A stretch of DNA of 54,833 nt from Ilumatobacteraceae bacterium (GTDB lineage Bacteria > Actinomycetota > Acidimicrobiia > Acidimicrobiales > Ilumatobacteraceae): NCBI GenBank assembly GCA_030726975.1, contig JANRCO010000100.1, forward strand, positions 1 to 54,833, given 5' to 3'. Under the pieces are notes generated by a model. The model had not been told where the DNA came from. It was given only the letters and a program-made list of their open reading frames with translations, and did no database searches. Position 1 is the stretch's first letter; each line of letters starts with the position of its first letter. Positions 48,406 through 53,537 of the stretch are shown piece after piece. The translations under genes were made by a program, and so were the position numbers.

Positions 48406-48771
48406 TTAAGAAGCGGCAACAACTGCCACTGCAACAATGTATGTATGGCTGAGAGATACCCGCCACTGCGTAATACCAAGTTGTTCAGCTAGTTCTTGAG
48501 CACGACCAGAAACAATGAGTTCGGGAGCGCCCGAAGCGGCTTTACGTACGGAAACGTCATGAAAGTCGAATGCCCCCAAGCCCACACCGAGTGCTTTCAT
48601 GGTTGCCTCACGCACAGCGAATCGTGCCGCTAACGCTCCAGTTGCATCTTTGCGTGTGCCTGCTAGTTCAAGCTCTGCACTGGTAAACACTCGAGTCTTG
48701 AGCGATGGAGTACGGCTCAATACGTCGCGAAAGCGTTCAATATCTACAGCATCTACCCCAAGCCCAATCAT
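48406..48771 (-). CDS. acpS: Holo-[acyl-carrier-protein] synthase
   Basis: MIGLGVDAVDIERFRDVL, ALAARFAVREATMKALGVG, VSLSHTYIVAVAVV. Confidence 0.92.
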   Translation of the reverse strand: MIGLGVDAVDIERFRDVLSRTPSLKTRVFTSAELELAGTRKDATGALAARFAVREATMKALGVGLGAFDFHDVSVRKAASGAPELIVSGRAQELAEQLGITQWRVSLSHTYIVAVAVVAAS

Positions 48772-51700
48772 GATTGCTGGGTCTGCCATCTGTTTGCAGT
48801 ATCGGAGATCGGCAAGATGAGAGCATCGACAACATCGATGTCGGCAAGAAGATCGTCGCGGAACTCGCTTTCCGTTTCTTTCACCCAGTCGACGAGCCGG
48901 TTGTAGCGGTCGTCATAACCTTGCAGAACCGATTTCATCACGCTTGCACTGAGTCGTTGCGCAAAGGTGACGTGCAGCAATGTGATTCCTGTTGTTTCAC
49001 CAGACTTCAATTCAGGTATGAAAATAACAGTGCGATGATCGGATCTTCCGCGGGCAACCAATACTTCTTGGTTACTAGCGACACGGTGTTTTGTTCCGAC
49101 CAGGCGAGCAACTCCATCTACACGTGATTTCAAATCGAGTGAAATACCACCGCGCTCAATAATGGAAATATTGGCTTCATCTATTTCGCTGCCATCTATG
49201 CCGTAGCGCGTGAACCCGTTCACGGAAAGAACGGCAGCATCGAGATCGGCCAAAATTTTGAGGGTGCGATACGCGAGGCGATCTCGCGAGACACCTGCGG
49301 CCAAGACTGCTTGTACCAAGGCTCGGTCCATCAGGCCCTCGTCGTTACGCGAGATACCTACTGTTACGGTTTTTGCTTGATGCTTAATGGCATCAATGGG
49401 TCGAGTGAGTTCATCAATTGCCTTCGTTAAAGCATTAATGAGATCATCGAGCAAGACGGCGGGAGTAACTACTTTTCCAGAGTGACGCTGATAAGCATCA
49501 ATTGGATCTTTCGATAAAACATCGTAGAGTATCGATGTTAAACGCACTGCTGTTGAAGCCTCGAGCGTTCCGTCGTATTGCCCTATCGAAAGGGCGTCGA
49601 AGAATCGCCCTGCAGGTTGTACAGCATGGCGGCGAATGTGTGTAACCACCTGCGTTGACTCTGTGTAAGTACCCGCAATTTCTTTGATGGACTCGCGGAT
49701 TTCGCGCAAGGGTCGAGCTGTTGCATCGATAGCGAGGGCTGCTTCGTACCCGAAGAGATGCCCCACCATGGCCGAAAGTATGAAAGCAACCGATGGGTCG
49801 ACTTCTGGAACCATTAAGACAGCCGACGCGGCATCGAAACGTTGGTCGCCACGTGTAGCCACAACGATTGGAGTTGCCTTATGCGCCTTGTAGATGGCGA
49901 TTTCTTTTGCCACGTCTGCAGCTGTACCACCAACAAGCCCAGCAGCACAGACCAAAATCATTGGCTCACAAGAAAGGTCAATATGCTTTTTGTCTTCTGT
50001 GATGTCACAAGAAATTGATTTGTAACACAATTCAGAAAGTTTGATACGTACTTCGTTCGCAGAGACAGCATTGGGGCCATTGCCTACGACGGCCCAATAT
50101 CTTTTCGCCGGAGCGAATCGATGCGCTGCTTCGGCAATTTGTGGTCGCTCACGAATCACTTCGCGCATCGCATCGGGAATTGACTTCAGAGAATTCAATA
50201 CACGATGACGCGCTTGGTTGCTTCCTACACCTGCTGCAGCAGAAATGGCACAAGAAAGTAGAACCCCAGCTGCCACTTGTGCATAAAAGGCCTTTGTACT
50301 TGCCACGCTCATTTCAAGATCGCGCCCGTCTGATGTGTACAACACGCCATCGGCTCGCATTGCGAGGTCTGAATTACGACGATTCACAATTGCAATAACG
50401 TGAGCTCCACGGCCACGCGCAAGATCGACTGTTCTATTGGTGTCGGTTGTGGTTCCACTTTGGCTTACTGCAATCACCAACGTGTCGCTCATATCGGGCA
50501 AAAGACCAAACCCGGAAAATTCAGTTGCGGTTAATGCATCGACATCGAAGGCGTCTTCAGACAAAGAATTGAGGAGCGCCACCATGCTGCTTCCCGCAAC
50601 TGCAGCAGTGCCTTGGCCAATGACACGAATGCGACGAATTTTGCGTGAAACCAATAACGTGACTACGTCTTTCGGTAAAACATCTTCGTCAAGGTCTGCA
50701 GCACAAACACCATTGATTTTGTGAATGCGACCACGCAATGTTTTGCGGAAGCTTTCAGGTGCTTCAAGAATTTCTTTCAATAAGAAGTGCGGCGATGTTC
50801 CGCGGTCGATATCGCGCGTTGTTACTCCAGCATCGACAACGTCATTACTTGTTACTGGCAGTGAGGATCCGTCGTAACTCACACGTTCCATGCCTGTGAT
50901 ATTTCCGGCATTACTTGCTAGCAGTTGAATAACCTGCCCACGGCTTGCAGGTTGGTCGGGTGACACCAACGACTCACCATCCATGCGCACGATGTTTACT
51001 GTGTCTTCGACTGTTCCATAAGGCTCGCTCGCGACAATGAACCGATCTTCGGCGAGGCCAATACACATACCTTGGCCGCTCCCGCGCAAGGCAAGCATCA
51101 CACTGTCGGGGTGATCGACACTCAATGCAGCAATGGCTACTGAACCGTCGAATTGTGTCACCGCATTGAGGAAGCTTTGTTGCAGTGGTTGGCCTGCTTG
51201 TAAACCACGGGCAACCAAACTGGGGATGACTTTGGCATCGGTGGTGATGGAAGCTGCTACAGAAATATCGTGTTCCACTTTGAGATCTGCATAATTGTCG
51301 ACATCGCCATTTAAAACCGCCAAAACCAGAGGCTGTTTTTTGTTGACTTCTTCGCCAGTCACAGGGTGAGCATTGGGCTCAGAAATGATTCCGACACTTG
51401 CCCAGCGCGTATGCCCGATGACACTGACCTTGGCATTTTTTGCTGAGACAACACGTCGCAATAAAGCATCTTGCAAAATATGTTGCCGCATGGTTTTTGT
51501 GTTGTCGCCTAGTTCACCAATTTCTGCTGCTGCCTTGTATACAAACACCCAGGCATCGCCTTCCACACGCACAGAACGCGAGGTAAAGAGAGCGTCTTCG
51601 TGACGTGGCACAAATGCATTTCGTAATGCAGGGTCGCCCAACACCACATCTTCGGTGAGACCATGACCCCATACCACTACACCGATGCCGGCGGAATCTC

Positions 51701-52193
51701 TGCCACGAACTTCCATCCGGTCGATAGCAGAGAGAGCTTGTTGGATGGAGAGATAGCCATGTAATGATTCTTCAGATGCGTGCATTCCGGCAAGCAAAGA
51801 AACTTCCCGAGCGGTACGCAGGCGATCATCAGATATAGACCACAGCGCATCTTTGATTGCAGAAACAGTGTGTGACGCATTCTCAATGAGATGTGCATCT
51901 TGGCTTGCCTCTAAAGCAGCTTCGTACTTCTCTACTTGAGGAGCCAATTTCGCCAGTGCAGCGCGAACACCATCGACCAACTCTGGGCTGCCCACCAGGG
52001 CACGAACCCCAGCGTCACCTTTAAGCAACGTATTGACTGCTTCGAGCGCCTCGGCAGCACGTTCTGCGCTCGTGAAGTCGGTTGAAGCATGCTCCATCAG
52101 AGTTTGAGCTTCAAGAAACTGATGAAAAATGTCGTCGTGTGTGGGGGTGGCGCGGTCGCCTTTACGGCTGAGGACACAGATAATTCCACACAT
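48768..52193 (-). CDS. Giant GlmS-like protein (glutaminase plus two SIS domains, insertion and C-terminal extension), 1141 aa
   Basis: MCGIICV Ntn-Cys start, RGRDSAGIG, GHTRWASVG, SQSGTTTDT, DLEMSVASTKAFYAQ; next to glmM. Confidence 0.87.
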   Translation of the reverse strand: MCGIICVLSRKGDRATPTHDDIFHQFLEAQTLMEHASTDFTSAERAAEALEAVNTLLKGDAGVRALVGSPELVDGVRAALAKLAPQVEKYEAALEASQDAHLIENASHTVSAIKDALWSISDDRLRTAREVSLLAGMHASEESLHGYLSIQQALSAIDRMEVRGRDSAGIGVVVWGHGLTEDVVLGDPALRNAFVPRHEDALFTSRSVRVEGDAWVFVYKAAAEIGELGDNTKTMRQHILQDALLRRVVSAKNAKVSVIGHTRWASVGIISEPNAHPVTGEEVNKKQPLVLAVLNGDVDNYADLKVEHDISVAASITTDAKVIPSLVARGLQAGQPLQQSFLNAVTQFDGSVAIAALSVDHPDSVMLALRGSGQGMCIGLAEDRFIVASEPYGTVEDTVNIVRMDGESLVSPDQPASRGQVIQLLASNAGNITGMERVSYDGSSLPVTSNDVVDAGVTTRDIDRGTSPHFLLKEILEAPESFRKTLRGRIHKINGVCAADLDEDVLPKDVVTLLVSRKIRRIRVIGQGTAAVAGSSMVALLNSLSEDAFDVDALTATEFSGFGLLPDMSDTLVIAVSQSGTTTDTNRTVDLARGRGAHVIAIVNRRNSDLAMRADGVLYTSDGRDLEMSVASTKAFYAQVAAGVLLSCAISAAAGVGSNQARHRVLNSLKSIPDAMREVIRERPQIAEAAHRFAPAKRYWAVVGNGPNAVSANEVRIKLSELCYKSISCDITEDKKHIDLSCEPMILVCAAGLVGGTAADVAKEIAIYKAHKATPIVVATRGDQRFDAASAVLMVPEVDPSVAFILSAMVGHLFGYEAALAIDATARPLREIRESIKEIAGTYTESTQVVTHIRRHAVQPAGRFFDALSIGQYDGTLEASTAVRLTSILYDVLSKDPIDAYQRHSGKVVTPAVLLDDLINALTKAIDELTRPIDAIKHQAKTVTVGISRNDEGLMDRALVQAVLAAGVSRDRLAYRTLKILADLDAAVLSVNGFTRYGIDGSEIDEANISIIERGGISLDLKSRVDGVARLVGTKHRVASNQEVLVARGRSDHRTVIFIPELKSGETTGITLLHVTFAQRLSASVMKSVLQGYDDRYNRLVDWVKETESEFRDDLLADIDVVDALILPISDTANRWQTQQS

Positions 52194-52202
52194 AGGAGTA
52201 CT

Positions 52203-53537
52203 TTACCTGTCTTGCCCAGAGGCAGGGTGGCTCAACATTTGGGCAATGCGTTCGGCATATTCCTGGGCTTCTGTCGATGTTTGGGCTTCAACCATGACAC
52301 GCACAAGTGGCTCGGTTCCGCTCGCCCGCACCAACACTCGCCCTTTGCCATCTAGTAACTGTTCTATTTCAGAAATAGCTGCACGATTCTTGAGCAACAG
52401 ATCTTGCGGTGCGATGCCCCCCTGTATGGGCACATTAATGAGCACTTGCGGAAGTGATGTCATTACCTCTTTTGCTGCTGCTCGCAAATTTTGTTGCCGA
52501 GAATGAAGCACGGAAAGAAGTTGCACAGCAGCAAGCAAGCCGTCGCCAGTGGTTGCATGTTGTGTAAAAACAATGTGGCCACTTTGTTCGCCACCCAAGC
52601 AAGCTTGTGCTTCTTGCAAGGCCAGCAGTATTGATCGATCACCAACGGGAGTGACAAGTACATCAATGCCGGCATTTTTCATGGCAATATGAAAACCCAT
52701 GTTGGTCATCACCGTTACCGCAACGGCATTGTTTGCGAGGGCATTACGCGCCTTGAGTTGCAACGCAAAAAGTGCGATGAGTTGATCGCCGTTCACCACT
52801 TCGCCATTTCCATCGACGGCAATGATCCGATCGCCATCGCCATCAAATGCAATTCCGAGATCTGCCTTACTGCGTATTACTTCTTGCATTAACAACTCAG
52901 GGTGGGCTGCACCACAAGCTTCATTAATGTTTTTTCCATCGGGCGAGCAGTGAATAAAACTCGGGCTCATCCCCAGTTTCTTAAAAACTCGTGGCGCAAC
53001 TTCGCTCATGGCTCCGTTGGCACAATCAATAACTAGTTTGACTTCTGTTGCAACTTCCGTGACCGATGCGCAAACATGTGCGCAATATGCATCGAGATCT
53101 AATGCGCCTTCCTCGGCACCCGCATTGACGACCTCAGTTGTTTCACTTTGTACAAGCGCTTCATAAGTGTTTTGGATACGCGATTCTTGGTCGTTGGTGA
53201 GTTTGATTCCACCCTCACCAAAGAACTTCAATCCATTATCTGTATAGGGGTTATGCGAGGCGGTAATGACCGCAGCACCTGCCAGGCAATGTTCGGCATA
53301 GAAGGCAACCGCAGGTGTGGGGCACATTCCGGCCCACAAGACCTCTACACCTTCGGCAATAAAGCCAGCTTCTACTGCGCGTGCAAGTGGGGCGCTTGAT
53401 TCACGGGTGTCAAAGCCAATAACAAAGAGCGAACAACGCAGTTCACGCGCAGCTGCGCGGGCGTATAACTGAACGGCATGAGTGGTGATGTCGCGAAGTG
53501 CAACGCCACGAACTCCGTCGGTGCCGAACCGTAGCAA
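52203..53537 (-). CDS. glmM: Phosphoglucosamine mutase
   Basis: MLRFGTDGVRGVAL, VITASHNPYTDNGLKFF, GIAFDGDGDRIIAVD, GEQSGHIVF, RASGTEPLVRVMVEA. Confidence 0.95.
   Translation of the reverse strand: MLRFGTDGVRGVALRDITTHAVQLYARAAARELRCSLFVIGFDTRESSAPLARAVEAGFIAEGVEVLWAGMCPTPAVAFYAEHCLAGAAVITASHNPYTDNGLKFFGEGGIKLTNDQESRIQNTYEALVQSETTEVVNAGAEEGALDLDAYCAHVCASVTEVATEVKLVIDCANGAMSEVAPRVFKKLGMSPSFIHCSPDGKNINEACGAAHPELLMQEVIRSKADLGIAFDGDGDRIIAVDGNGEVVNGDQLIALFALQLKARNALANNAVAVTVMTNMGFHIAMKNAGIDVLVTPVGDRSILLALQEAQACLGGEQSGHIVFTQHATTGDGLLAAVQLLSVLHSRQQNLRAAAKEVMTSLPQVLINVPIQGGIAPQDLLLKNRAAISEIEQLLDGKGRVLVRASGTEPLVRVMVEAQTSTEAQEYAERIAQMLSHPASGQDR

Follow-up and report, generated by a model that had tools for sequence, protein, structure and literature searches.

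The locus described here raises the question of whether a GlmS-like protein of 1141 residues can do the work of the canonical glucosamine-6-phosphate (GlcN-6-P) synthase. Cell-wall and amino-sugar synthesis begins with GlmS, which serves both as an antibacterial target and as a model for feedback control; in model bacteria it is regulated by a ribozyme or by proteins. The window, that is, the whole stretch of DNA analyzed, is a contig of 54,833 nucleotides from an Ilumatobacteraceae bacterium, and its initial annotation had proposed that a giant GlmS takes the place of the normal one. We asked whether the gene is intact, which features of GlmS it retains, what its additional segments might do, and how it is distributed relative to canonical glmS.

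The long gene and its locus

The gene is a single uninterrupted ORF of 1141 codons on the minus strand (ATG at 52193, stop at 48768), and glmM and acpS flank it on the same strand (Table 1), in the arrangement given by the initial annotation, which had specified no strand. Other elements of that annotation also hold: the translation begins with the Ntn cysteine in MCGIICV, the glutaminase and SIS motifs correspond to Pfam matches to GATase_6 (residues 257-390) and SIS (518-646), and the protein is indeed nearly twice the canonical length, exceeding canonical GlmS by about 530 residues. Against the NCBIfam glmS model, TIGR01135, it scores 238 bits, far below the cut-off of 418 bits, and it falls outside the equivalog definition of that family (at least 418 bits, about 607 residues).

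A frameshift fusion or an assembly artefact can be ruled out. Full-length homologues of similar size (61 proteins of 1067 to 1172 residues) recur in many independent assemblies, including that of the isolate Desertimonas flava, and comparison with five close relatives revealed mainly synonymous codon changes (for example, 384 synonymous versus 54 non-synonymous) and no indels; the gene is therefore real over its full length. One homologue with 99% identity (L033:5992-9423) is broken by a single in-frame stop, probably an assembly error. A record titled Acidobacteria (L038) encodes a long form 70% identical to ours in the same synteny, and its label is probably wrong.

Table 1. Genes of the locus and segments of the long GlmS-like protein, with positions in the window
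Feature	Positions	Strand	Evidence
Long-form glmS, 1141 aa, whole gene	48768..52193	-	ORF, homologues of similar length, codon comparison
glmM, next pathway step, directly upstream of long-form glmS	52203..53537	-	ORF, conserved synteny
acpS, directly downstream of long-form glmS, 22-nt overlap	48406..48789	-	ORF, conserved synteny
Glutaminase (GATase-II) part, residues ~1-450, nucleophile Cys2	50844..52193	-	Pfam, profile and sequence alignments
Helical insertion in the glutaminase fold, residues ~13-140, after strand 1 and before the RGRDSAG helix	51774..52157	-	Predicted helices
SIS1, residues ~466-660, phosphate loop SQSGTT (577-582), VASTK (630-634)	50214..50798	-	Pfam, alignments
SIS2, residues ~661-824, with Lys718, Glu721 (E. 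coli Glu488) and Lys736-His737 (His504)	49722..50213	-	Alignments
Helical insertion of ~105 aa (825-930), between SIS2 and catalytic tail	49404..49721	-	Models, alignment
Catalytic tail RPIDAIKHQAKTVTVGISR (931-949), Lys941 = E. coli Lys603	49347..49403	-	Alignment to canonical tail
C-terminal domain (950-1141), alpha-beta, weakly GAF/PAS-like fold	48771..49346	-	Model, fold search

Active-site residues, phylogeny and predicted fold

Our main conclusion, which we hold with high confidence, is that the long forms make up a distinct and deeply divergent class of GlmS, and that the 1141-residue protein is a predicted working GlcN-6-P synthase of this class; we infer its activity from conserved residues and fold. 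In an unrooted tree of the core, all long forms fall into a single group, separated from the sampled canonical GlmS by a very long branch with full support.

Residues were compared in an alignment of 33 long forms and 14 canonical GlmS sequences. Cys2 is kept in every aligned long form with a full N-terminus, and Arg163, Arg263, Trp264, Asn295, Gly296 and Asp319 are conserved in all long forms aligned (33/33), as are Lys736, His737, Ala940 and Lys941. Counterparts of E. coli Arg26, Arg73, Trp74, Asn98, Gly99 and Asp123, which we take to be the residues of the glutamine site, are all present. Profile to profile, the long form matches canonical GlmS with an E-value of 2e-53, and Glu721 and Lys718, both invariant in long forms, were placed by this type of alignment. 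The catalytic residues of the E. coli enzyme are Cys1, Glu488, His504 and Lys603 (PMC9272926). All three that serve the isomerase are retained, as Glu721 (Glu488), His737 (His504) and Lys941 (Lys603). The last of these is displaced to mid-sequence by an insertion. Canonical GlmS ends with the tail PRNLAK[ST]VTVE, whereas its long-form match, RPIDAIKHQAKTVTVGISR at residues 931-949, is followed by about 190 more residues. This tail match, on which the assignment of Lys941 rests, exceeds nearly all shuffles: tested one sequence at a time, 9 to 84 of 20,000 reached its score.

Its score below the equivalog cut-off and the change of some active-site positions in all aligned long forms speak against reading the protein as a GlmS, as does the low model confidence of its catalytic tail described below. 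The consistent changes are (E. coli residue first) Ser303 to Ala530, Glu351 to Thr581 and Thr76 to Ser266; in addition, E. coli His77 is mostly replaced by Val267.

In 11 of the 15 sampled Desulfobacterota long forms (L144, L145, L146, L148, L149, L150, L152, L153, L155, L156 and L157), a conserved leader of about 45 residues or more (..YIG...VP...IVIFP...) precedes the invariant Cys, and there is no start codon ahead of this Cys, which suggests a cleaved propeptide. In GltB and PurF, a leader is cut off to free the Cys nucleophile.

Structure prediction, proposed as a check in the initial annotation, returned the GlmS fold. The AlphaFold2 model of the whole protein (mean pLDDT 83.9, pTM 0.64) comprises a glutaminase and two SIS domains as in GlmS; its best PDB match is E. 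coli GlmS (2j6h, TM 0.76 by target length), and human GFAT-1 was also matched. The model is weak at residues 459-466, 623-631, 725-742 and 940-952, the last three being active-site segments by alignment, and the catalytic tail has a very low pLDDT of about 31, so that the model does not show Lys941 positioned at the active site.

The long form thus has in common with canonical bacterial GlmS (TIGR01135; E. coli 2j6h and 1jxa) the glutaminase and two SIS domains, the catalytic residues and the place by glmM, but differs in its greater length, its internal lysine tail, its score under the family cut-off and its separation in the core tree. Eukaryotic GFAT-1 (PDB 6r4e and others) has the same fold and domain order and also exceeds bacterial GlmS in size, but at about 690 residues it lacks both the large N-terminal insertion and the C-terminal domain of the long form. 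Proteins of the NagB-II and AgaS type likewise carry SIS domains acting on sugar phosphates, but they have no glutaminase domain, and the long form scores 61 bits for NagB-II versus 258 for GlmS.

Glutamine hydrolysis, ammonia transfer, and amination and isomerisation of Fru-6-P are established for E. coli GlmS. In the long form, Cys2 would hydrolyse glutamine and the ammonia would pass to the SIS isomerase site, where Glu721, His737 and Lys941 would convert Fru-6-P to GlcN-6-P, a product that the neighbouring GlmM would take up.

The added segments and their possible role

The extra residues, about 530 in all, consist of the helical insertion in the glutaminase domain, the insertion ahead of the catalytic tail and the C-terminal domain of about 190 residues. 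The first of these is absent from canonical GlmS in the alignments, has predicted helices at residues 19-34, 40-56, 59-68, 70-95 and 100-135, and gave no family match. The C-terminal domain is also absent from canonical GlmS and has no Pfam family match. The C-terminal region, modelled separately (residues 836-1141) and compared with the PDB by Foldseek, gave no match at E <= 0.001 (best 0.008); the top-ranked matches, none of them significant, include many PAS, GAF and Cache domains as well as a large glutamate dehydrogenase. Profile matches of the C-terminal domain to designed repeat proteins in the PDB look spurious, as no stretch passes alone, and were discarded.

One reading, to which we give slightly less than an even chance, is that the protein works as a GlmS and that its extra segments are purely structural, serving for instance in oligomerisation, and have no regulatory role. 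It is compatible with our main conclusion and competes only with the idea of gating presented below. The C-terminal domain is without a significant fold match and its ligand binding is hypothetical, which suits a structural role; on the other hand, it contains positions conserved across two phyla, which suggests more than filler, although scaffolding would still be compatible with such conservation.

Alternatively, the added segments may control the enzyme. The lysine tail has an added segment on each side, and a shift of one or the other might, hypothetically, open up or shut the isomerase site. From its model, the C-terminal domain may sense a ligand, and it could conceivably regulate the enzyme through the tethered tail. 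We put forward, tentatively, that the catalytic-lysine tail is tethered between the helical insertion and the GAF/PAS-like domain, and that ligand binding could thereby gate the active site. Other GlmS enzymes are known to have UDP-GlcNAc and GlcN-6-P as feedback signals (PMC6171935). The most inclusive proposal, a second and ancient class of GlcN-6-P synthase that would combine a tethered tail, control by a GAF-like sensor and, in part of the Desulfobacterota, a cleaved leader, is rather unlikely in its entirety.

Distribution of long and canonical forms and pathway context

The initial annotation had seen no canonical glmS in the window and had considered that one elsewhere in the genome, together with a lack of GlcN-6-P synthase activity, would make the protein a different enzyme. 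None came to light: the genome itself (78.6% complete) contains no GlmS-family match besides the long gene, and all 20 family members covered by the class search, this one included, carry the long gene while lacking canonical GlmS, the other 19 being at least 94% complete and three of them in a single contig. We then considered the class Acidimicrobiia, where 112 of 197 genomes have a canonical GlmS above the cut-off, 78 have the long form and none has both (the two lists were compared by eye), keeping in mind that such counts cluster by relatedness and do not represent independent events. The other seven have neither by these criteria, and two of them (G135 and G149) hold canonical fragments. 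Our survey of the long form covered Actinomycetota and Desulfobacterota. Among 297 sampled Desulfobacterota genomes, 37 carry the long form, 36 of these without canonical GlmS, which is present in 18 of 20 genomes of this phylum without the long form. Both forms occur together in one other actinobacterial genome (G223, with 5% contamination) and in one Desulfobacterota genome (G563). As for plasmids, all of the matches listed in our search stop near residue 820-856, which is also where canonical GlmS ends.

In many genomes of the class, canonical glmS lies in the order glmM-glmS-acpS-nnr, which is the very place of the long gene. Canonical GlmS is replaced by the long form at the same locus, and since both occupy that locus, in-place replacement or very strong divergence is the natural reading. 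The initially proposed substitution of the normal GlmS by a giant one is thus supported by residues, locus, exclusion in two phyla and predicted fold, its activity being a prediction from sequence and model.

Could the long form instead be a GlmS-like amidotransferase making another amino sugar phosphate, with GlcN-6-P coming from elsewhere? The deep divergence from canonical GlmS, the altered active-site residues and the low score would fit, but we find this very unlikely: nearly all carrier genomes are devoid of canonical GlmS, the locus next to glmM matches that of canonical glmS, and every isomerase catalytic residue is retained. NagB is disfavoured as the other source of GlcN-6-P, as it was not found in 35 of the 41 family genomes. 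A bifunctional enzyme, in which a C-terminal acetyltransferase would replace a missing half of GlmU, is extremely improbable and can be dismissed on the GlmU distribution and the C-terminal fold: GlmU is indeed shortened to about 360 residues or unrecognisable in the family, but class-wide this shortening follows the order and not the GlmS type (canonical-GlmS families f2, f4 and f13 of the order have it too), full-length GlmU occurs in the majority of long-GlmS genomes from other orders, and no acetyltransferase is among the top fold matches, so that we reject a link between the two. GlmU has about 360 residues, without the acetyltransferase half, in most of the order; the genus to which the window belongs (G000, G144 and G686) has no recognisable GlmU (best E ~1e-15), and of 41 genomes a single one yielded a eukaryote-type UDPGP.

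We found no description of the long-form GlmS in the open-access papers searched; it is apparently a widespread and undescribed variant within a known enzyme family. The long class scores under the curated glmS cut-off, and genomes that carry it can appear to be without glmS. With its added domains around the catalytic tail, it offers a testable case of built-in control of GlmS in bacteria. Many environmental bacteria, the present one among them, would make their first cell-wall amino sugar with what appears to be a double-length GlmS in place of the normal-length enzyme, whose extra parts may regulate the enzyme.
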